A DNA stretch of 24,438 bases, taken from Gonapodya sp. JEL0774 (lineage: Eukaryota > Monoblepharomycota > Monoblepharidomycetes > Monoblepharidales > Gonapodyaceae). The notes under the pieces were generated by a model, which was not told the origin of the DNA, made no database searches, and worked only from the letters and a program-made list of their open reading frames with translations. The translations under genes and the position numbers were made by a program. Shown one piece after another: positions 1,165 to 24,303 of this stretch; within the stretch, counting starts at the first letter, position 1; each line of letters starts with the position of its first letter. The stretch covers positions 1 to 24,438 of the forward strand of contig JADIIX010000229.1 in the NCBI GenBank assembly GCA_027604505.1. The letters are read 5' to 3'.

Positions 1165-1521
1165 GTGCTTCGCAATACGTACGATCCTCTCTATATCCTC
1201 CTGGGCATTTACCCGATATCGAGCAACAGCCGTTGTTGTAGAATCTGCAATGGAGGAAACAACGAATCGTTCAGTCAACATTTGCTTGGTCTTGTTCCCC
1301 ACCATCTATTCCGGTCCCTGTTGGCTCAAATCGATGATCGGATCACTCCACGAAAACAATATGTTATATTGTGTGGCGTTTCTCTCGATCCGTCGTTGTT
1401 GGCAGGTGAGATGTTGGCTGGGCATGCATATGCGTTTGAAGAACTGCAGAGGAGCGTGAGCGCTGATCCACATGCTGAGCTCCTCTTCTTACACAAGCGC
1501 GACCACCAGGACCGCATTTGA
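1165..1521 (+). pseudogene. unrecognised ORF with a Cys/His cluster, possible retroelement remnant
   Basis: A 118-residue open frame without a recognisable start context. Around residues 24-40 it has C-C-R-I-C followed by E-S-F-S-Q-H-L-L. This is loosely like the C-x2-C ... E-(S/T)-x-x-H-L(L/F) cluster found after the reverse transcriptase of many LINE retrotransposons. The usual final cysteine is not evident, and no reverse transcriptase motifs occur upstream. It may equally be a random open frame. Confidence 0.2.
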
Positions 1522-2330
1522 AATTAATTAATTGAATTACAGCTCAAGTAAAACAGCTCAAGTAAACTTTTTTAAAGAAGCCAATTAAGCTGCACTATGG
1601 CCATCGTCTATTTCATATCTGACAGAGTGATAGCCTGCAACGCATGACATATTCACGTGTTCACCGACGCAAGGTGGTTAAATGACCATTGTCGCAAGCC
1701 AGAAACTTATCTAAGCAACTTGTAGCAGCTCCTCCGTTGTTCTCCTTGCGTGATCTCAAGGAGACTCGGGAAGCGCGGGGATTTTCCTCCCCCTGAGGTA
1801 ATAAATGCCGTCCTTCCCAGTCTCCTCTCTCGAGTGCACCACCATCAAAACGTGCAACTTTCTCTTTATAGTTCGACAACTTTGCGTTTGCAATAAGAGT
1901 GACCGTGATTTGTTTGAGTGAGTCTTTGTTTGAATAGTCATAAGTCGAGGTGCCTGCAACCATAGTGTGATCGTGATTTCATTATCATTTTGCTTTCCCA
2001 TTTCCATAAACGAATGCAAATTAATAGCTCTATTCCCTCCGTGACCACGAAATATCCCAACCACTATGTGCCATCACCGTCCGCCCGTCCGAACCCTCCT
2101 CTTCACCTTCCCCTACCCCTCCCTTCATTCTTTCCCATCTGCACCGAGAACGACAGTGCAACACGGGCCGCGAGCGCCCGTCGTTGGTCCTCGGGGAGGG
2201 TTTGGGCCATGTCTGTTTGGTGGAACACGCCGTTGGTGCGACGTGTATTAGTGGGCCGGGGACGCAATGGATGATGGACCGACATAAAGGTGCGCGTAGA
2301 GAAAGACGAGTTGGGAATGTAGAGGTTTGG
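1522..2330. other. intergenic, nothing recognised
   Basis: The stretch lies beyond the 3' end of the minus-strand p34-like gene and should hold its 3' UTR. Several overlapping open frames occur on both strands, but none has a family motif. Bases 1,520-1,620 are AT-rich with a repeated phrase (acagctcaagtaaa) occurring twice in tandem near 1,540-1,566. Confidence 0.4.
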
Positions 2331-5136
2331 TCAATACCGTTCTACCATTCCCCATCCCCTCGGCACCCCATCCTCACCTCTCAACCCCCTCAACTTCTCA
2401 AACGCTCTATCAAACCCTTCAAACACTTCCTCGGGGTCTCCTTCCTCGCCCAACCCGAGATCGAAACCCCCGGCGGCCACCCCTCCCCCTCCAAACCCTG
2501 CAAACGCTCCAAAATCGTCGTCGAATCCGTCCGCGTCCACGTCCACCTCTTCCAACCGATCCGAGCCTCCATCTCTTTCGAACTTGTCCCCGGAACGCAC
2601 AGGCTCCATCCCCTCGAACGCGGCCACCCAGGCGGGGTTGGCGTCCGCGTTGACGTGGCCGTCACCGACCAACGTCGCAGAGGAGGAGGAGGAGCGGGGT
2701 AAGGTGGGGCCGAAGATGTCGAGGTGCATGGCGCGGACGGAGGAGCGGGAGGGGGTGTGTGCGGCTGGGTGGGGGTGGTTGGTGGTGGTGGTTGCGATGG
2801 GGCCCGCGCGGGTGGGCGGTGGGGGAGAATGAGGTGGCGGAGTATGTTAGCCAGATGTACCGACGACGAACAAACAAACCACCGCCCGAAAGACACTCTG
2901 CGCGCACCATTTTTCCCAATTAGGGCTCAAAAGAACACTACGCCCCTTGCCCCCCAAAATACCCACCTAGCCCTGGATCAATCTCCACCATAGCCCTCAC
3001 CACACTCTCAAACTCTCCAAACCCATCGTCATCACCTTGCTCGTCCCCGTCCCTCGCTTTCCTCCTCCCCACACCACCAGCGCCCGTCGCACGCACCCCA
3101 GGCTCACTACCCCCGCCACTCCCGGCCGGCTCCGCCCCATCCCACACATGCGACACTAACGCCTCCACAATGCGGGGCACGCCTTCCCTCTCCCTCCCCA
3201 GTTCTTCGTCCTCGTCTTCCTCCTCCCCGTCCTCCCCGTCCCCCCCACCTCCGCCCAAAACACCGGTACTCGGATCCACCACCACGTACTCGAACCCCCG
3301 CTCGGCACACCAGTCACGGTAACTTTCGTGCAAGGCGGCACGGCGTTTTTCGTGGCCCTGGACCGGAGCGTGCCGTGACCCTGAGCCGGTGCTGATGGGG
3401 TCCGGCACGGGGCCCGAGTGGAGAGAGCCTGCCGGGTCGTAGGCGACGCAGATGGAGATAGAGGGGGAGAATTTGGAGAGGGTGGTGGTGTGGGGAGTGA
3501 GGTGTTTGAGGGTGGAGGGCTGGATTGGGAGCGGAGGGGGGATAGTGTGATGGCAAACAGAGAGACTGAGTGAGTAACGTTTGCCGCGCTAGCTGAGGCA
3601 CAATCAAGAGTATCGAGTGTACAGTGGATGCAGTGTTTCTCTCTCTCACCCATGCATCATGCGGTCCCCCGTCCCCGCGACGTGCTTCTCTTTTCTATAG
3701 TTCCGATTCCCGAATGCAGAATGCCCAATGCCGATGATACAGGTATCCCACTCCCCACCACGGCCCCTACCACGGCACGCACGCAACACACACTGTCTGG
3801 AACGCATCACACAAAAAGAGCCGTCACCTCGGACCGCAATCCAGGACCACGAAGCACCGCAAACCCACAACCCCGCACGCCCCCCGGCCCACCCAAACTC
3901 ACGTTCGCTGGATCGAACACGACGACCACCGCGTCGACCATGGGTCCGATGAGGTCCCAGTCTTGTGGTGTGAGGAGGAAGGGTGAGCTCGGGGAGTGTG
4001 GTGAGGTGGGGGAAGTTGGTGAGGCGAAGGTTGTGTGTGCGGGTTCGGAGGGGGAGGTAGAATCGGGAGCGGGAGGTGTGATGGACAACCCTGTGCCGCC
4101 TTGGGTGTCGGGTCGGGCGGCAGTGGCACCTCCACCCTCACACTCGGCCGCCCCGTCAGTTCCAGCCCCCGCAGGCACCGCTGCCACCCCCGCACCTGCC
4201 CCGCCGACGTGCCCCTCCACCGCCGCCACCCAAAAGTCCAGCTCGGCCCTATAGTACTTGTTCTCCACCGACCAGGGCACAATGGCGCCGTTGGCGAGTG
4301 CGGATGAGGGCGAGGGTGAGGTGGAGGTTGGGGAGGATGGGGAATCGGACGAGGAAAGGAGGGTGTCGAGGTGGGGGAGGAGGGAGGGGGTGGTGGTGTG
4401 GAGGATGTCTGGTGGGTTGACGAGTGACAAAGTGAAAGGTGAAAGAGAAATTTACAACATGTCGAAAGGAAGTCGATGTGAGGAGCGACGGGCGGGACCC
4501 AGCCACCACTCCAACAAACACACGTGAAAGCAAGAAAAAGCCAACAAGGAAAGTACATTTGTATAGGAGATCCCCCGACCGACTGTGTTCCCTGACCACA
4601 ACCAGCAAGCAGAGCGCGTGGAGGACACACCAACGCACGTGTTATAAAACAACTACAATCCGACCAAGAACCAACACGAACCAACGAAAACGACAACCAA
4701 CGACCACACGAGCATCCAAGCACGACGCACACACACAAAAGTCCACGAAAAACAGAACAATCTGTGCCCCCACCGACCGGCCGGCCTCTCAACCCCCCGG
4801 CTGTCTCTGAACGGTGTTTCTCCCACGACCGACGGACGCACCTCTGATCAGATGGACGGGTAAGTGGACTGCTGAGGGATGTGAAGATGAGACGACGAGG
4901 ATCTTGTTTCGGGGGAGGTCGAGGTCCGAGTCGACGTCGGCGTCCATGTCGGCATCTTCACCACCGGGATGAGCGTCCCAGGAGCCGGCACCGTTTCCGC
5001 TCGCTTTCCCCATGCCGTTGCCGGTGCCGTCGCCGAGACCCAGGGAGAGGAGCGCCATGTCGTCTGCCAGCGTCAGCGTCGACTGTGTCTTTGCCGTGCT
5101 CGCCGTCGTCGCCAGCGGATCCGAGGAATTGTCCAT
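2331..5136 (-). CDS. alpha/gamma-adaptin-binding protein p34 (AAGAB/Irc6-like)
   Basis: Four exons on the minus strand (5136-4842, 4408-3903, 3519-2967, 2764-2331) join in frame at GT-AG borders to give 595 residues. The family binds the large subunits of AP-1 and AP-2 clathrin adaptors and acts in the cytosol as an assembly chaperone. Visible family marks are the N-terminal strand NKILVVSSS (residues 77-85), VPWSVENKYYRAELDF (142-157), a (V)DAVVVVFDPAN strand at the end of exon 2 (to residue 267), SISICVAYDP (287-296), WCAERGFEYV (337-346), then GVPRIVEALVSHVW (380-393). The C terminus has FDRAFEKLRGLR, like the FERLFSKLKEMK helix of human AAGAB. The protein is longer than human AAGAB (about 315 residues) because of an N-terminal extension, a Ser/Pro and Gly/Ala-rich insert in exon 2, and acidic and glycine-rich inserts. 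The first ATG of the open frame is used as start; no nearer one keeps the strand intact except internal Met residues at 27 and 42. Fungal homologues are called Irc6; the name is inferred from motifs. Confidence 0.82.
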
Positions 5137-6095
5137 CTGGTGCGAGTCTCAGACTGTGTATGCGGTGTATGGATGTGCTGGATTCCCAGTCTGGACGTCT
5201 TTGCTCTGCTCTCTCTGCGTCGCGGGAAATCAGGTGAAAATGGGTGATCTCGTGTGAAATCAATTCTTTGTGTGAAATTGGGATGCACCCGTGGTCACTG
5301 CATAAACACAAACCTCCATTCCCACTCGCTGCATCTATTCTATGTATTTGCGCATTCAGTTTTCCCAAATCATGGCTATCTGAGTCAATCTGTGCATGCT
5401 CGGGCCGCTCATTCAAATCTCTTTCCCCTCCGTGGTGCCTTGCTCTTTGTCACTCCGACCAAATCCATACAAACCTTCTTCGTCCGTTGGTGCAATCCAC
5501 AGCCTATCCTGTGCTCTGTCACCTGCTTGTTCGAAACGGTTTAGCTTCCTTGAGAGAGCCGTGATCAGGGAAAGGTCCAAGGATTTGTTCGAGACTTGAA
5601 GACTTCTGCAGACGAATCCAATCAAATGATCCAGAAAACGGAGACGGGTACAGGAATACGCGAAAATTGACTTTTCAGGTTTACCAAGGTGGTATGGTGC
5701 GGTAGACGATTTTCGGGTATTCCATCACCCGCACCATCACCTGTGTGTGCGGAGAGTACATTCATTTGTACTTATGTAGTACGCACTCGGGAGAGGCGTG
5801 ATACCTGATTCTCGAAAAACACTCTACAACTATGGTTTCAGAGGCTTTTGGCCAAAACTGGTGGTTTTGGAGCAAAACAGTTTTGGAGCTGCCAAATACG
5901 CCCCAATGAGATCATCCTCGTCTTTCAGCAAACAAAGCTCCACAGCATGACGGGTGTGCCAGCTGCATGCCAAACTGGCAGACAATGGATGTCTATCACC
6001 ACGACGAACGGTTCGTTGATGATCAACACGCTCAACAGATTCATCTCCATCTCTGTCGACGAAAATCCCCTCGTTGTTCTGTAATCTGAACGAGA
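5137..6095. other. p34-like gene promoter side and degraded upstream part of the Fanzor
   Basis: The left part should contain the promoter of the minus-strand p34-like gene. The right part (from about 5,650) is where the N-terminal half of the Fanzor should be, but none of the three plus frames shows a family motif. The longest frame (5848-6084) has no recognisable domain. The N-terminal half has either been lost or decayed beyond reading. Confidence 0.45.
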
Positions 6096-7185
6096 ATTAA
6101 AATTCGTGTATTGGACACCCAATGAACGTGGGCAACCTATCACGCCATCGTGGACGTGCCAATTGGCCACCCAAATGCAACGCCCCCTTTGGATCCAGTT
6201 TCATTCAACAATTGGAACCCCAACTACAATCGCGGCTTCACCACGAACGAATATTACGAACGTGCTGGTTACTTGGCCAACGAGTGAGTTGAAAACCTGG
6301 CCGCAATTGTTTCTTCATTTTCTGAAACATGGATAAACCTTCCCTTTATTCCATATGACATCCTCCCTTTACTTTCATTCAGGAGAATCCGCGCAAAATG
6401 GATGAATCGGAATGCCCGCGTGAACGACTTCAACAAGAGTGTGAAATCGTACAAAACAGTGGATCACGCAGCCCTCCTGGTCGATCTTCAGTTCCGCCTG
6501 AGGGAACTTACTTATGTGATGAGGTTTTATGCAATTCGGCGGTGGCGGTGGTATGTTTCTTCTGCTTCCCTCTCAGTGGCTCAGCACACACAGGTTGACG
6601 CTTTTGTGCTTTCCAAGTCTGCGGCTTAGGGCTAAATCTGGTCAACAACGAGCTCTAGCCCAGCTCATGGACAAATTTTTAGGTGGTAGGAACCCGAACG
6701 AGTGTGTGATAGCGTGGGGTGCAGCAGAGTTTCATCAAGTAAGTGGTATTTTCGGCCTGTGTCCTGCGAGTGCCAGGTTGATGATTGTGATACTTCCAAC
6801 CCAGGCTTCCAAAGGACATCGGACGTCGCCAAATAAGCTGATCCGAAGATACTTTGTGACGCGAGGGGTGACTCTGATCTTGATAGATGAATTTCGCACC
6901 TCAAGGATCTGTTCGAGTTGCCACAACTTCTTTCCCAAGGACGAGGGGACGAAGCAGAGGCTGTGGGGTGTACGGTGAGTTTGATCGGCTGTGACAATGC
7001 TGAGGACGATGGATGCCAAGGAAAGCATCACACTTGTTCCCGCACTCCCCACCAGGTCATGCGCGACCATGAATTGTGGCATAACCTGGAATCGTGACAG
7101 GAATGCCGCCCGGAACATTTTGTACCTCTTCTTCCACGCCAACGCCACTGGCACCGTCGTCCGCCCCGGCCTCTTCCAACGGTGA
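6096..7185 (+). pseudogene. Fanzor (eukaryotic TnpB-like RNA-guided nuclease), 5'-truncated and degenerate
   Basis: Fanzors are transposon-borne eukaryotic relatives of TnpB that cut DNA guided by an RNA made from the element's 3' end. Five exon pieces (to 6283, 6383-6550, 6630-6738, 6805-6974, 7056-7185) join in frame at GT-AG borders; the open part after 6125 gives 244 residues. Marks in order: a degenerate RuvC-I reading VLDTQ-stop-TWATY (Asp kept at 6114-6116, usual PG lost, TGA at 6123-6125); TTNEYYERAGYLANE; RRWRW and QQRAL helix; VIAWGAAEF; SKGHRTSPNK; ILIDEFRTSRICSSCH, with the alternative RuvC-II glutamate of Fanzors and the first zinc-ribbon C-x2-C; then C-x4-C and CGITWNRDRNAARNIL, the RuvC-III aspartate. 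It ends in RPGLFQR, as Fanzors often do. The second zinc pair is only in frame after removing intron 6975-7055, which supports the splicing. A further stop at 6087-6089 and no N-terminal wedge or REC region indicate an inactive relic, unless an unseen exon supplies RuvC-I. Identity is firm; inactivity is inferred. Confidence 0.85.
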
Positions 7186-7372
7186 AGCGCAGGCTGTTCA
7201 CCAGTTAGTTTTATTTGTCATTTGGAGATTCTCTCTACCCACACTCCCTTCACATTTCTTTTGCACATGACTACTCCTGTTCCTGCCCTCCACTTCCCAA
7301 CTCCCTCCAGCCATCTTCTACCAATTTCTCAATCCCTAGACGCTGCCGCCATCCAGGCAAAATAATAGGCGG
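7186..7372 (+). other. 3' flank of the Fanzor relic
   Basis: Pyrimidine-rich sequence with no coding signal. In studied Fanzor elements the guide (omega) RNA lies in or just past the 3' end of the gene, so this stretch and the hairpin and repeat after it are the expected place. No guide scaffold can be recognised by eye. Confidence 0.35.
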
Positions 7373-7404
7373 TGCACATTCACATTGCACCTCGTGAATG
7401 TGCA
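7373..7404 (+). repeat. perfect 11-base inverted repeat (hairpin)
   Basis: The arms TGCACATTCAC (7373-7383) and GTGAATGTGCA (7394-7404) are exact reverse complements separated by ten bases. The right arm overlaps the first bases of the 136-base repeat. It could be an element end, a structured RNA stem or chance; it is 188 bases past the Fanzor stop codon. Confidence 0.8.
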
Positions 7405-7536
7405 TAGGCTCCTCCTGGCGTTGGGCTCTCAGGGCCGACTGTGATCCGGGGTAGGGACCTCTAAGAATTACAGAACGGCATAAGACCCTTAGGAGTACAA
7501 AGCAGTGTCATATTTTGGTTGTGCATGTTATAGGGG
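7400..7536 (+). repeat. dispersed direct repeat, copy 1
   Basis: About 136 bases that match 9,030-9,168 with only scattered substitutions and small indels. The best conserved core runs from agggccgactgtgatccg through gaattacagaacggcat to acaaagcagtgtcat and ends in cgcatgttataggg-like sequence. There is no coding frame, no tRNA-type promoter boxes and no poly-A tail. Within it, CCTCTAAG and CTTAGGAG could pair imperfectly into a stem. It lies about 130 bases upstream of the ATG of the next putative gene, as copy 2 lies about 90 bases upstream of SEM1. Nature unknown: short non-autonomous element, Fanzor end or small RNA gene. Confidence 0.85.
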
Positions 7537-7667
7537 CAACTACTAGATATGTATCAGCCAAGTCGAGCCGAATGAGTCACGAGTCACCACCAGAAGCTCA
7601 GCGTTCCCTACACCTAGTCCAACCAGCACACCCACCTATACGCTTCAAATCAAGCCGAACACAAACG

Positions 7668-8276
7668 ATGCAATCACGCCTGTTCTCGCTTTCTTACGTA
7701 TCCCGGGTATCGCCGGTGTCGCGTGCGCTCCTCTCCATACCCCAGCAGCCTCCACATTCCATCCACAAGCCCCACCCCCACTTCTCCAAACGACCACGGA
7801 GCACAAGCGCTCGTGCACAGGGTCAAGCACGGGACCCGAAACCAGAGAAGACGGAGTACTTTATGGAGTCGGGCGAAGGTAGGTGGTTCGGTCTTCAAAA
7901 AGGAGCGGGACAAGCGAGGAGTTGTTTCCCGGTTTGCTCTCACGCTCGGTTATGTCACCCCGCGTCCCTTCCCCCTGCACGTCTTGGTACCCCACTCGCC
8001 ACAATCCACCACCACCCGCCACTCTTCCAAGACGCCTTCTCCCCCGAACCTGCCCATCTCGATGACGTTGCCGTCAAAGTTGAGACGAACAAGGACTGGG
8101 TCATGGCGAGCGGGGAATGTGTGTTGAATGTACTGGGGGTGACAAGGGTGGGGGCAGGGGGCGCGTGTTCTGGCAACCCGCACTCACACAACGGCTCCTC
8201 TCTTCACTGCTTGCGTCGCCATGTAGTGGGCATTCCTGCGCACCAAACGTCACCGGTTGAGAACGTCCACTCGTGA
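7668..8276 (+). CDS. hypothetical protein with mitochondrial-type N terminus (model incomplete)
   Basis: The start at 7668 begins MQSRLFSLSYVSRVSPVSRA, rich in Arg and Ser and without acidic residues, as expected of a mitochondrial presequence. A likely exon 1 is 7668-7878 (donor GTAGGT), followed by an in-frame, stop-free intron of 153 bases and a second exon from 8032 (acceptor CCAAG) reading DAFSPEPAHLDDVAVKVE and KDWVMASGE. The open frame runs to a stop at 8276, but the true gene may splice on into 8,350-8,530, where a GC-rich segment ending in GGAGCACG|GTGAGT looks like another exon. I do not recognise the family. Confidence 0.35.
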   Translation: MQSRLFSLSYVSRVSPVSRALLSIPQQPPHSIHKPHPHFSKRPRSTSARAQGQARDPKPEKTEYFMESGEGRWFGLQKGAGQARSCFPVCSHARLCHPASLPPARLGTPLATIHHHPPLFQDAFSPEPAHLDDVAVKVETNKDWVMASGECVLNVLGVTRVGAGGACSGNPHSHNGSSLHCLRRHVVGIPAHQTSPVENVHS

Positions 8277-9025
8277 GCGTGTGAATGCGCGTGACGTGCG
8301 TTTTCCACATGATTTTCACCTCATCACCTGCTACCCATGCCTGTCACTGCCTGCCTTTTGCCACCTGCTTCTACAACCGACCCAGCTACTCTCTGGACTC
8401 TGGCGAGACCGTCACAACCACAAATACTCTCCATGGTGACTCGGAGCTCACTCCAGCCGACAGTGAGACACGGCTGGACGGTCGTCCCCACCGGGGCGTG
8501 GAATACGATATGGAGAGCGGGGAGCACGGTGAGTGGTGTTCGTGGAAATTGTGGAAGAGTAATTTTTGTGGGGGATCTGTGTGATGAAGAAGAGGATCGA
8601 GGAGTGGGTGGTGGGTGGACCCCAAGGGGCAACGGAGTGGGGATTGGTGAATGAGGAGGAGCGTCAAAAAAGGGAGTAAGACCAAAACCCTGGGCCATTT
8701 GGAGTTTCGGGAACCCTCGCTGTGGTCGTTTATTCGCTTATGTGCTCTTCCCGAGTCCTGCGTACATTGTTTACTGACGGGAATCTCATCCCACACCCTT
8801 CCCCGCCAATCTCCACCTGCCTGGCCCCGTTACGTCCTCACAGTCGGCAAGTCGGCTGAGTAGCTGAGAAGTGTTGGATGGTCCTCACTTTTTTTTTCGA
8901 ATGTGGATTGTTTGGTGGGGTTCTTGGGTTCACGAGTACTGCGTGTCGGACTGATCTGCATGCTTCATGTAAATAGAAACATTTAGTGGTTCTTGGGGGG
9001 GACAACGTGATGGGAGGAAGGTGCC
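8277..9025. other. no certain gene; possible further exons of the preceding gene
   Basis: Bases about 8,350-8,530 are open in two plus frames and end at a good donor (GTGAGT at 8530), so they may be a later exon of the gene starting at 7668. Beyond 8,650 nothing is recognised. Confidence 0.3.
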
Positions 9026-9029
9026 AATG

Positions 9030-9168
9030 GTGCACGGCTCCTCTGGCGCCGGGCTCGGCTCTGAGGGCCGACTGTGATCCGGGGTAGGGACCTTTAAGAA
9101 TTACAGAACGGCATGGAACCCTTAGGAGTACAAAGCAGTGTCATCTTTTGGCTGCGCATGTTATAGGG
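9030..9168 (+). repeat. dispersed direct repeat, copy 2
   Basis: The 139-base partner of 7400-7536 in the same orientation, about 1.63 kb away. Differences include ctctaag versus ctttaag, cataag versus catgga, and tatttt versus tctttt. No Fanzor coding sequence lies next to this copy, so if the repeat belongs to the element, this is a solo or deleted copy. Confidence 0.85.
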
Positions 9169-9183
9169 TCTATGTGTATGGCG

Positions 9184-9218
9184 AATGGTGCACGGTCTCC
9201 TGCTGTGGTGCCGTGCTC
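9184..9218 (+). repeat. partial repeat of the left edge of the 136-base repeat
   Basis: AATGGTGCACGG(T)CTCCTG followed by a gtgccg/tgctc stretch resembles the start of copy 2 at 9026-9055 with a few changes. It may be a truncated extra copy, or a duplicated flank left by insertion of copy 2. Confidence 0.4.
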
Positions 9219-9259
9219 CCACCCTCCTCACCGAACCGTCATATTCTCAGCACAAACCA

Positions 9260-10225
9260 ATGCCCGCCAAAGCGAACCCCACTCCCGCACCCACTGCGTC
9301 TAAAAAAGACGCCAAAGACGCCAAGAAAGACGCCAAGGACACCAATCCTACCGACACAGACGAGAAGCGCGGCGAGAAGAACCTCGACGAGCTCGACGAT
9401 GCTTTCGAGGATTTCCCGGCAGACGGTGCGTGGGCTGGCAGGTGGTTTGTGGGGATAGGGTGTGCGGGGCGGGAGGGGATTGGGGGGAATGGGGGGGAGA
9501 ATGGAAACGGACGGGCGCTTCACTTGACGGTTTGCGCAACTCCCAGGAGTGGACAACGGTGGCCACGCGGCGGGACAAAGAGCGACCACAACCCGGCTTT
9601 ATTTTTTCCTCCCGTTGAAACGTGGGGCTCGGTTTTCATTCCCTTTCCCTTCCCTAAAAATGTCGCTCCTCTTCCCCGTCGACAGTCTACGACTCTCCAG
9701 ACGCCGACTCCGACCCCGCAAAGACGGCTCACGTGTGGGAAGACACGTGGGAGGATGAGGACCAGGTCGAGGATTTCGGGGCGGGGTTGAGGTGGGTTGT
9801 GTGTGGTGCAGACGGGGGCGAAGTGGGGCGGTCGGCAAGGCGTCGTTGTCGGGGTGGGAGATTGGAGGGAGGGCGAGGCTCGCGTGTGCCGTGCGGGACG
9901 TGAACAAGGAACGTGGGTCCTTGAGAGCCACGACGCAGCCCCCGTTCTGGACACTCATCGTCCGGGCTCGTTTATGTTACACCCACCCATGCGCTTGACC
10001 ACTTTACGGTGACGCATCACTTACCCATATTTCCCTACCCATCCCTTACCCCTTGTCCCCGCCACCCTCTTCACCCGCTTGCGTGCCTTTACCACCTGTT
10101 TTTCTCCTCCTTCAACCATCCACCCCCACCGGTTCCCACCCCATCCCGCCCCCCCTCATTCGCGCCCCAACCCTTACAGAGCCGAACACGAGAAACTTGC
10201 CGGGCCACAGCCTATGAAGATATGA
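9260..10225 (+). CDS. SEM1: 26S proteasome lid subunit SEM1/DSS1
   Basis: Three exons (9260-9425, 9686-9791, 10180-10225) join in frame to 105 residues. SEM1 is a small, acidic, disordered protein that helps assemble the proteasome lid (with Rpn3 and Rpn7) and also works in the TREX-2 mRNA export complex and with BRCA2-type recombination proteins. The family signature is clear: LDDAFEDFPAD at the end of exon 1, then AHVWEDTWEDEDQVEDF in exon 2, and LRAEHEKL ending near the C terminus. The N terminus (residues 1-40) is Lys/Asp/Ala-rich and not conserved. In this model the usual Trp of the first acidic-aromatic site (FPxEDW) is replaced by Tyr (FPADVYD). A later donor after 9,426 would include GAWAG, which resembles the human EDWAG, but those donors break the frame into exon 2. 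The start at 9260 is the first Met giving a family-like length. Confidence 0.88.
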
Positions 10226-13700: not shown

Positions 13701-15546
13701 ATGACCTCCTACCTCACAAAACACCGCCCAGGACGCACGATATTCGCCAATCCAGGACCTACGAATGTGCGATTTGGCGGACCTCGGTTGCTGTTTTGAA
13801 ACCACGTCTTCTCATTGCTCGTGTTTCTTTCTCCCCCGCCGCCCTCCACAAACGATCCGGCTCAACTCCCTTGTTCCGCGATCGTGATTGCTCACATGTC
13901 ATCGTACGACGACGACATTGTAGATTCCAGAGTCGGTCCTCCATGCCAGCGCGGTTCCGTCTCTCGAGTGAGCAGAGGAACCAAAATCGAAATCGGAGCG
14001 CATGCTCGCACCACCGTAGTCTCATCCCACGCTCTCTCTTTTCCTCACAACTCCCCTCTTGCGTTTATTACCCTGGTTCTCTTCTGGCCTTCCCCCCATG
14101 CCTTCTCGATATCCCGTTGTCTCAAGCTTCATGGATGAAGACTTCACCAACAACGTCTACCTCCCCTCAGTCGAGTACCTCAAAAAGATCCTCAAGACTG
14201 AAACCGCCCAGATTTTCCTCTCCGCGTCGTCGGGAAATGGATCGTGGGAGTCGGTTCTGGTCAACCTCTTGTCTGCCGGTGACAAGATCCTCATCATCGA
14301 GGGGGGTTTCTTCTCGGATTTGTGGGGCTTTATGGCGGTATGTGGTCTTTCTCTGTTTCTTGCATGAGCAAACTCGAGCTTTCGATGCCCATCCTCACTA
14401 CTCGTCCACCCAACCCGCCCCTTCTTCCCCCAGCGCAACCTCAGCCTCGAAACCCAAGTCCTCCCCACCCCCGTTCGCACTGGCCTGGACCTCGACTCCC
14501 TCCGCACCACCCTCCTCGCCGACCCGGAGCACACCATCAAGGCCATCTGCGTGGTCCACAATGAGACGTCGACGGGCGTGACCCTCCCCCTTGGCGAGAT
14601 CCGCCAGGTCATTGACGAGACGGCCCACCCGGCACTGTATCTGGTCGACACTATCAGCAGTCTGGCCAGCATTGATTTCCGTATGGACGAGTGGAAGATC
14701 GATGGTGTGGTGTGCGGGGGGCAAAAGGGACTCATGCTGCCCACGGGGCTTGCCATCTCCGCAGTATCGCCTAAAGGGTGGGCAGCATCGGCGACTTCCA
14801 ACCTCCCCAAACACTACTTCAACTGGCGGTTCCAGATCCAACGCCTGCCGCACAAATCGTTCGCCGGGACCATACCCACACACATGATCTTCGCGCTCCG
14901 CGAGTCACTCCGAATCATCGAGGCTGAGGGTGGCGTAGACGCGGTCGTTGCAAGGCACAAGAGGCTCGCGGAGGGGGTCAGGCGGTGTGTCGCGTATTGG
15001 GGCAACGGAGGCACATCCACTCAGTTGGAGGGCGCGCCAGAGTTTTTCTGTCAGGACCCCACGCGGTACTCGGATTCCATCACAGCGGTGGTGATTCCTG
15101 GAGAGGGGAAACCAACCGAGGTGAAGAAGGCATGTTTGGAGCTTGGAGTGAGCTTGGGTGGTGCGATCGGGAAGTGGACGCAGGGCAAGGTGATCAGGAT
15201 TGGTCACTTGGGTAAGTGTCTGATGATGAATCTCTGTCTGTTCTGCTTTTGTGTCGTTGTGGTTTTGCTACTTTTTTGTTCAGAGGGGGGTGAGAACTCT
15301 ACTTCGAACCGTCTTACCATAACACACGTCCTCCCCTACCCTTAAGGCGACAACAACGAATCTTCCATCCTCGCCATCCTCGCCACCGTTGAAACCGCCC
15401 TCAACATCACCGGAGTACCTCACCACGCCGGCGGTGTGACACAGGCCGTAAAGTATTTCGCGGAGGCGAAAAAGACGGCCAAGAAGGCGGCCGAGGCGGC
15501 GGAATCCGCGGAGCCGGCGCAAGTGAAGACGAACGGACACGCGTGA
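13701..15546 (+). CDS. alanine-glyoxylate / serine-pyruvate aminotransferase, paralogue without PTS1
   Basis: Five exons (13701-13766, 13924-13967, 14127-14337, 14434-15211, 15347-15546) join in frame to 432 residues. The enzyme is a PLP-dependent class V aminotransferase that converts glyoxylate and alanine to glycine and pyruvate (serine is often also used). Marks: FANPGPTN at the end of exon 1 continued by IPESVL in exon 2, the FLSASSGNGSWE phosphate-binding turn, VVHNETSTG, LVDTISSLASIDFRMD with the PLP-ring aspartate, and GGQKGLM with the Schiff-base lysine near residue 205. The C-terminal region has TRYSDSITAV, GKVIRIGHLGDNNE and FFAEAK. The tail after that is Lys/Ala-rich and ends in NGHA, with no peroxisomal SKL-type signal and no clear mitochondrial presequence, so a cytosolic location is likely. 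It shares exon phases with the minus-strand paralogue at the right end. Confidence 0.92.
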
Positions 15547-22718: not shown

Positions 22719-24303
22719 CTACAGCTTGCTCCCGGTCTCGCCAGACCGTGCTTCTGCAAAGAACCGAACCGCCTTGGTGACCCCACCCGGGTAGTGAGGA
22801 ACTTTGGCGATGTTCAAGGCAACTTCGATGGTGCCAAGGACACCAAGAATGGATGATTCGTTGTTGTCCCCTGTTATGTGCAGCGGATGATGAGTTGAGA
22901 CACACACACAAAGCACGGTGCACCGTTCGACCCACCCAAGTGTCCGATTCGAATAATCTTCCCCTGTGTCCACTTTCCGATTCCTCCGCCAAGACTCACG
23001 CCCAACTCTAAGCTCGTCTTCTTCACCGCCTCGGGCTTCCCGACTCCCGGAATCAGCACCGCGGTTATCGAGTCCGAATATCTCGTGGGATCCTGGCAAA
23101 AGTTCTCTGGTGCACCTTCCAACTGCTTCCCCGCGTCCCCTTTACCCCAGTGGTCCACGCACCGCCTCACACCCTCGGCCAGCCGGTGATGCCTGGCGGT
23201 GACGGCGTCGACCCCTCCTTCGGCTTCGATCAAGCGCAGCGACTCGCGGAGGGCGAGTATCTGCTGTGTGGGCATGGTGCCGGCGAAGGATTTGAAAGGG
23301 ACGCGGGTGATGGCGACTTTGTAGTTGAAGTAGTGCTTGGGAAGGTTGGAATGGGCGGTGGCGGCCCACGCTTTGGGAGACACGGCGGAAAAAGCCAGAC
23401 CGGTTTGGAGCATGAGGCCCTGTGTCGTTATGTGATGATAATGCGAGGGTGTTGATGAGGGGGGGCTGACTCCGTGGACGTGTATGTGCCGCCACGTGCA
23501 GCAAAAAGGTACTGGAACACACCTTCTGCCCCCCTCCAACGACCCCGTCCACTTTCCACTCGTCCATCCGAAAATCTATACTTGCCAGACTGCTGATGGT
23601 ATCCACCAAGAACAATGCCGGGTGGGCCACCTCGTCGATCACCTTCCTAATCTCTGCCAGGGGCAGGGTGAGACCTGTGCTGGTCTCGTTGTGGACCACG
23701 CAGACGGCCTTGAGCCGGTGAGCCGTGTCGGCCGAAAGCACGGTGCGGAGTTCGCCCAAGTCGAGGCCGATACGGGCGTTTGTGTGGATGTACCGGACTT
23801 GGAGGCCCAGGTTTTTCTGTGGTGGGTCGGTCATCGGGTGGCCCCACCAGTGAGCATTGAGCATGCAGGCGGGGTTTTAACACAAGTTCGCACACCGGAA
23901 TGGTCGAAGGCTCACCGCCATGCCCCCCCACGCCTCGGGGAAAATCCCGCCCTCGACCATGAGTATTTCATCACCCGAGGACAACAAGTTGACGAGCACG
24001 CTTTCCCACGCGCCGTGGCCCGAGGACGCGGACAGAAAGACCTGCCCTGAGGTGGTTTTGAGCACGCGTTTCAAGGCGGCCACGGTGGGGAGGTACACGG
24101 TGTCTGCGAAGTCGTCGCTTTGGGGGCTTTATGGGACGGGCATGAGAGCAATAGGGGAATGGAGAAGACGGGGAATTTTGATGGGGGACGGAAGAGGGGG
24201 GCATCGGAGTTCCGGATGTGATTGGATCGGGTGGCACTATTCTCCAGAATAAAACTCACTCGAGGGACGGGATCGACGCGGCCTGCAAGACCGAGTGTGG
24301 AAT
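22719..24303 (-). CDS. alanine-glyoxylate aminotransferase, peroxisomal (PTS1) paralogue, 5' partial
   Basis: Five exons are visible on the minus strand (24303-24260, 24117-23916, 23816-23523, 23419-22936, 22870-22719), all joining in frame for 391 residues. Exon 1, which should encode the start and the PGPTN segment, lies beyond the right edge. Marks: IPHSVLQAASIPSL, FLSASSGHGAWE, VVHNETSTGL, LVDTISSLASIDFRMD, GGGQKGLML with the PLP lysine, TRYSDSITAVL and GKIIRIGHLGDNNE. The protein ends in GETGSKL: the final SKL is the classic type 1 peroxisomal targeting signal. It is closely related to the plus-strand paralogue; the exons have the same lengths and phases, except that this gene has an extra intron directly after the catalytic lysine codon. 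Its likely job is glyoxylate disposal in peroxisomes or glyoxysomes. Confidence 0.92.

Follow-up and report, generated by a model that had tools for sequence, protein, structure and literature searches.

Probable Fanzor1-type C-terminal half in the surviving 3′ portion of a repeated element of Gonapodya sp. JEL0774

A 24,438-nucleotide stretch of Gonapodya sp. JEL0774 DNA (contig C229, positions 1–24438; hereafter the window) carries on its plus strand what its motifs identify as the C-terminal half of a Fanzor protein. We consider it quite probable that this half is of Fanzor1 type, has lost the rest of the protein through RuvC-I, and lies within the surviving 3′ portion of a repeated Gonapodya element. 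The window copy is most likely a recent relic. Other copies, named here by their contigs, come from the 25.0-Mb draft assembly (381 contigs) that was searched. The features of the window are as follows.

2941–3408: ORF, adaptin-binding (Pfam E=0.011, below cut-off)
4792–5136: ORF, TrAA12-like (Pfam E=0.0011, below cut-off)
6133–7563, plus: 5′-truncated Fanzor element copy (C-terminal coding half and 3′ noncoding end), by blastn to C8 and C179; 3′ end common to other copies
6133–6134, unstranded: 5′ breakpoint, where homology to longer copies stops sharply; upstream DNA unrelated
6135–6283, plus: exon a, just downstream of RuvC-I (TYHAIVDVP...LANE)
6284–6382, plus: intron GTGAGT...CAG, with corresponding sites in C8 and C179
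6383–6550, plus: exon b
6551–6617, plus: intron GTATGT...AAG, the only AAG acceptor among the four introns
6618–6738, plus: exon c
6739–6804, plus: intron GTAAGT...CAG
6805–6974, plus: exon d, with the relocated RuvC-II Glu codon (6889–6891) and first zinc pair CxxC (6910–6921); Pfam PF07282
6975–7055, plus: intron GTGAGT...CAG
7056–7185, plus: exon e, with the second zinc pair C-x4-C (7060–7077), RuvC-III Asp (7096–7098) and stop (7183–7185)
7410–7563, plus: 3′ noncoding module with CCAA as its last bases, a candidate for a guide-RNA scaffold or a transposition end; aligned in 7 copies
9026–9037, plus: left copy of the 12-bp direct repeat AATGGTGCACGG
9038–9183, plus: solo second 3′-end module of the same element, 146 bp; 96% identical to the C179 3′ end over 9036–9172
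9184–9195, plus: right copy of the 12-bp direct repeat AATGGTGCACGG
9185–9787: ORF, DSS1/SEM1 (Pfam E=0.033, below cut-off)

The window exons (6135–7185) encode 245 residues in a single open frame, with a natural TGA stop at 7183–7185. The last four (195 aa) match Pfam PF07282 (Cas12f1-like TNB zinc-ribbon) with an E-value of 1.3e-11 and 44.9 bits, well over the cut-off of 26.3, in agreement with the Fanzor identification made in the preliminary description. The same C-terminal 195 residues reach 1.4e-10 and 41 bits with the NCBI guided_TnpB model, whose curated cut-off is 100. Single-sequence comparison of the window protein with the PDB was weak (best LaTranC, 0.0032; Parasitella Fanzor 1, 0.021; SpuFz1, 0.25). 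A profile of three spliced Gonapodya copies placed the solved Fanzor1 nucleases SpuFz1 of Spizellomyces punctatus (6.6e-5) and Parasitella parasitica Fanzor 1 (3e-4) at the top of the 10 PDB sequences listed with E up to 1, a ranking by profile score.

PMC10711439 gives two marks of Fanzor proteins: a RuvC-II Glu that has moved to a place six residues ahead of the zinc finger, and a RuvC-I DPG motif. The first, E-x6-C, is found in all four copies compared for it (window, C179, C124 and C94), and the relocated Glu is lost in C8. The second is present in C179, C124 and C94 and absent from the window copy, where its position would fall beyond the breakpoint. The Fanzor pattern D-X(125,275)-[TS][TS]xx-C4 zinc finger-X(5,50)-RD, taken from PMC3627910, is complete in the catalytic half of C179, and the window contains all of it except the first D. 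The shifted RuvC-II Glu, both zinc pairs and the RuvC-III Asp noticed earlier are all located in window exons. The half does have introns and splices to one open frame, as had been proposed; the four introns within the homologous stretch, each starting with GT and ending with AG, are supported, against five junctions proposed. Copies C8 and C179 have the same exon order, which excludes chance for the window exon structure. The start of the feature, formerly put at 6096, should be moved to about 6133, and beyond the stop the element continues as noncoding sequence to about 7563.

Searched in six frames with the window protein, the genome yielded 27 matches spread over ten contigs, bearing out the expectation of further copies elsewhere in the genome, and C179 and C94 possess a complete catalytic half. 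Family A comprises the window copy, C8, C179 and fragments; family B, C124 and C52 (82% identical over 1841 columns); and family C, C94 and C53 (89% over 704). Judged by sequence, C94 seems the best candidate for a complete copy: its catalytic half is open (CDPG, relocated Glu, both zinc pairs and RD, via GT...AG introns), and its deposited protein P0003 (854 residues) covers the N-terminal part and extends just past RuvC-I. C179 has CDPG and a complete catalytic half; its standing as an intact copy is weakened by one N-terminal exon that shifts frame relative to C94, a change bypassed by differing splice choices in our 706-residue model and in the deposited model. C8 is decayed, with the RuvC-I Asp and RuvC-II Glu replaced and a repeat of ~172 bp interrupting it, and C29 is a decayed Fanzor piece. 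No copy, C179 and C94 included, is more than a candidate for a functional enzyme. A structure prediction of protein P0002 from a two-row alignment (mean pLDDT 30) was not used.

Several smaller observations concern these copies. The repeat in C8 (C8:6579–6750, TG...CA) has 35 matches in the genome including the C8 copy itself, several of them at contig ends, and resembles a solo LTR, including a 4-bp duplication. C143 carries an isolated 142-bp internal Fanzor piece (L015:4508–4649), 99% identical to C179 and without either element end, as if it were filler in break repair. Near the N-terminus of P0003, residues 127–144 form a CxxC-x4-H zinc-knuckle-like stretch that is echoed in C179; the Pfam match of the C179 stretch is weak (zf-CCHC_6, E=0.055).

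By blastn, the window element is 94.5% identical to C8 (6133–7561) and 87.4% to C179 (6133–7554), and homology to both extends only from about 6133 rightwards. In the register of C179, five 30-nt blocks downstream of this point match at 28–30 positions and seven blocks upstream at 5–10, the mean of 300 shifted registers being 7.4. When gaps were allowed, the 300 nt upstream of this point did not outscore 200 shuffles in alignment with the upstream regions of C179 (P=0.46) or C8 (P=0.82). The preliminary description had read LDTQ-stop-TWATY at this place as a RuvC-I that kept its Asp, lost PG and gained a TGA. That string instead straddles the breakpoint, with the entire 5′ part missing and no TGA gained: the Asp codon (6114–6116) and the TGA (6123–6125) lie upstream of the breakpoint in flanking DNA, outside the element, because homology to C179 and C8 drops to chance level upstream of 6133. 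A once-complete gene inactivated here by point mutation is thus highly improbable. The Asp codon at 6114 is in register with the Asp of CDPGRD, and a six-frame protein alignment ran through it, but DNA identity falls from 28–30 of 30 to chance at 6133, no upstream homology was found even with gaps, and no N-terminal exons were found upstream in the contig. Point mutation is already contradicted by the sequence, unless the contig is misjoined, and we infer that the register match with the RuvC-I Asp is a coincidence.

A six-frame search with P0002 as query found no N-terminal exons upstream of 6114 in the window contig. It matched such exons in C179, C8 and C94, in C52 from residue 475 and in C124 from residue 497, and gave one 52-residue match in C366. 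The window break and the repeat insertion in the sister copy C8 lie only a few bases apart; chance, a hot spot or one earlier event common to both copies may account for this. Upstream of the break, the window contains short repeats at 5815–5903 and 5653–5729, common to C56 and C169, and to C21, respectively.

Substitutions were assigned to branches with C179 as outgroup, leaving out gapped codons and sites differing in all three copies (2 of 730 exon sites). On the window branch, 9 of the 10 exon changes are synonymous, and the one nonsynonymous change replaces V by I close to the break. The C8 branch has 5 synonymous and 21 nonsynonymous changes (P=0.0002 for the difference between these two branches), and the C179 branch 31 and 18. 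Under neutrality 72–77% of changes are expected to be nonsynonymous, which gives P = 1e-5 to 8e-5 for the window branch (4e-5 at a share of 0.74), and a narrower count limited to codons on which the other copy and C179 agree gives 7:0. The introns took the same number of changes on the window and C8 branches (7 and 7 of 302 sites), and the 3′ region took 5 and 3 over 368 sites, so mutation rates in the two copies look similar. The 9:1 count, set against 5:21 on the C8 branch, therefore indicates that purifying selection acted on the half until a short time ago, or acts on it even now. A period free of selection, if one has begun, would cover ~18% of its branch at most. The counts fit the earlier impression of a recently inactivated gene.

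A half without any use would show such counts only after a very recent truncation, given this limit of at most ~18% of the branch. Continued use offers another account, in which a shortened or fused protein remains under selection after losing RuvC-I, for example binding guide RNA or competing with a complete enzyme. We regard it as unlikely. It would explain the 9 synonymous changes against 1 nonsynonymous (P=4e-5 against neutrality) and the intact exons, splice sites and zinc finger, and a break at the C8 insertion site would fit an old shared disruption; on the other hand, an in-frame start or upstream exon, looked for by eye, was not seen, the recognition domains are missing, and a very recent truncation accounts for the same counts. 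Quite unlikely as well is the proposal that a Fanzor C-terminal RuvC/zinc-finger half has been kept by selection after loss of RuvC-I and of the recognition domains, as a eukaryotic counterpart of nuclease-dead TnpB derivatives. If true, open-frame relatives and solo repeat-flanked 3′ ends could supply the partner enzyme and guide RNAs.

A misjoin of C229 at 6133, the true gene being full length, would make the break an assembly artefact, which we consider rather improbable: the assembly is a draft in 381 contigs and the exons look functional, but none of its contigs was found to contain an orphan N-terminal half for the window copy, the matches being those in C179, C8, C94, C52, C124 and C366. 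For the preferred recent relic, insertion of an already truncated copy and deletion or rearrangement are equally possible origins of the truncation, no target-site duplication being found at the window fragment. The full-length enzyme presumably works like other Fanzors, taking a guide RNA from the element 3′ end and cutting matching DNA with RuvC. The window half, without RuvC-I and recognition domains, would be unable to cut. A preserved half with a datable break, a decayed sister copy and open-frame relatives together allow a clean test of whether Fanzor halves like this one are remnants or genes put to a new use.

A 241-base query from the C179 3′ end found nine places: C179, C18, C16, C8, the window twice, C20, C120 (which runs into a contig end) and C72 (a short piece). 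The end of the element is reached at eight of them, as CCAA in six, TCAA in C18 and CGAA in the solo window copy, and is not reached in C72. A 601-base query from the C179 5′ end matched only C179 and C8, the 5′ end being more diverged (64–80% between these two) and harder to detect than the 3′ end. Copies truncated at the 5′ side and retaining 3′ ends comprise five of family A (the window twice, C18, C16 and C20) and C53, whose 3′ part is in pieces separated by ~480 bases of other sequence; C120 was left out. With its introns retained, the element has probably been copied as DNA. Most of the copies detected retain the 3′ end and are missing 5′ sequence to a varying extent. The retained introns rule out LINE-type retrotransposition of a spliced mRNA for the window copy. 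Reverse transcriptase matches number 25 in the genome, with none at the nine 3′-module places.

Direct repeats were tested at nine junction pairs (six truncated copies, two full-length copies and one internal piece) and stand out at two of the six truncated copies. At the solo window module, whose boundaries (9038–9183) were placed by its flanking repeat, a 12-bp match was reached in 0 of 2000 shuffles, a figure that is post hoc since the repeat defined the junctions; none of 20,000 random 30-mer pairs shares 11 or 12. The repeat at C16 is 8 bp (P=0.009) and partly overlaps the element's own end. In the shuffle test, no repeat stands out at the window fragment, C18, C20, C53, C143, C8 or C179. 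With its repeats (9026–9195), the solo module lies just upstream of the ORF with the sub-threshold DSS1/SEM1 match.

C20 has an overall identity of 83%, with only 2 differences in one 44-base stretch of its module; a scaffold for guide RNA or an end used in transposition might show such a pattern. Between the window and C179, however, identity in the module (85.1%) does not exceed that in the remaining 3′ UTR (86.3%) and is below that in exons (91.5%). Nine stretches were folded: the seven from 3′ modules gave z-scores of +0.26 to −1.89, no better than shuffles, and the two from the 3′ UTR upstream of the module gave +0.28 (7186–7335) and −2.51 (7264–7413; 0 of 200 shuffles), the latter a hairpin before the module that is not enough for a guide-RNA claim. 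An Rfam search returned nothing at gathering thresholds.

The copies resemble the CRe elements of Chlamydomonas in their introns, 5′ truncation, kept 3′ ends and, in some cases, direct repeats. As described by Bao and Jurka 2013 (PMC3627910), CRe-1/2/3 are intron-containing Fanzor1 elements, often 5′-truncated with 3′ ends kept; many truncated copies have direct repeats of ~7–19 bp, with none reported there at copies with full 5′ ends. That paper ascribes the loss of 5′ sequence, the excess of 3′ ends and the target-site duplications of varying length to one-ended Helitron transposition, CRe elements sharing ends with Helitrons, and its target-site duplication figures present 150, 70 and 35 loci. 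Unlike those elements, the Gonapodya copies are few and have repeats at two of six truncated copies; Helitron_like_N (PF14214) gave 0 matches in the genome, a search in which control genomes were equally silent. The Gonapodya copies may be a second, fungal case after Chlamydomonas of 5′-truncated Fanzor copies with 3′ ends kept, some with target-site duplications.

The Gonapodya copies are a new, divergent Fanzor lineage of a known kind of enzyme. Their LIDEFRTS...CxxC segment aligns to Parasitella Fanzor 1; the single C179 sequence is distant from both Parasitella (0.15) and SpuFz1 (0.4). In contrast to these two proteins, the family has many introns, a C-x4-C second zinc pair and an N-terminal CxxC-x4-H stretch, and the window copy is without RuvC-I. 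Searches of 5.8 billion proteins with the C-terminal piece, the core and the profile, the latter two scoring the 7994 and 7993 candidates that share most words, retrieved only three JEL0774 proteins at thresholds. All are named hypothetical proteins; two gene models do not include the zinc-finger end, and the third leaves out the region that bears the relocated Glu and first CxxC. Surveys of annotated proteins likely miss this lineage, because all three database models are without part of the catalytic end. Among viral contigs, 583 pattern matches included 0 relatives by tblastn, and no publication mentioning both Fanzor and Gonapodya was found in a literature search outside which subscription papers mostly lay. 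The copies add a divergent, intron-rich Fanzor lineage from Monoblepharomycota.

A separate intronless Fanzor2/TnpB-like ORF with DPG and relocated Glu, both recognized by eye, is located in C314 (L066:409–2478, minus strand). It is overlapped by a second ORF (1520–2242, minus strand), named serine-recombinase-like by eye, and from these motifs the locus appears to be an IS607-type element in the same genome. Fanzor2 and IS607-type TnpB likewise have DPG and the relocated Glu, but the window family is built otherwise.

The placement of the feature between housekeeping genes holds only in a loose sense: ribosomal protein S12 (E=2.7e-34) starts ~4.4 kb to its right, but the nearest ORFs scanned have no Pfam match above cut-off, including those at 7518–8273 and 8285–8581 with no Pfam match. 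Farther along, the window contains two inverted copies of an aminotransferase class V gene (14209–15449 and 22768–24044), ~69–74% identical in pieces.
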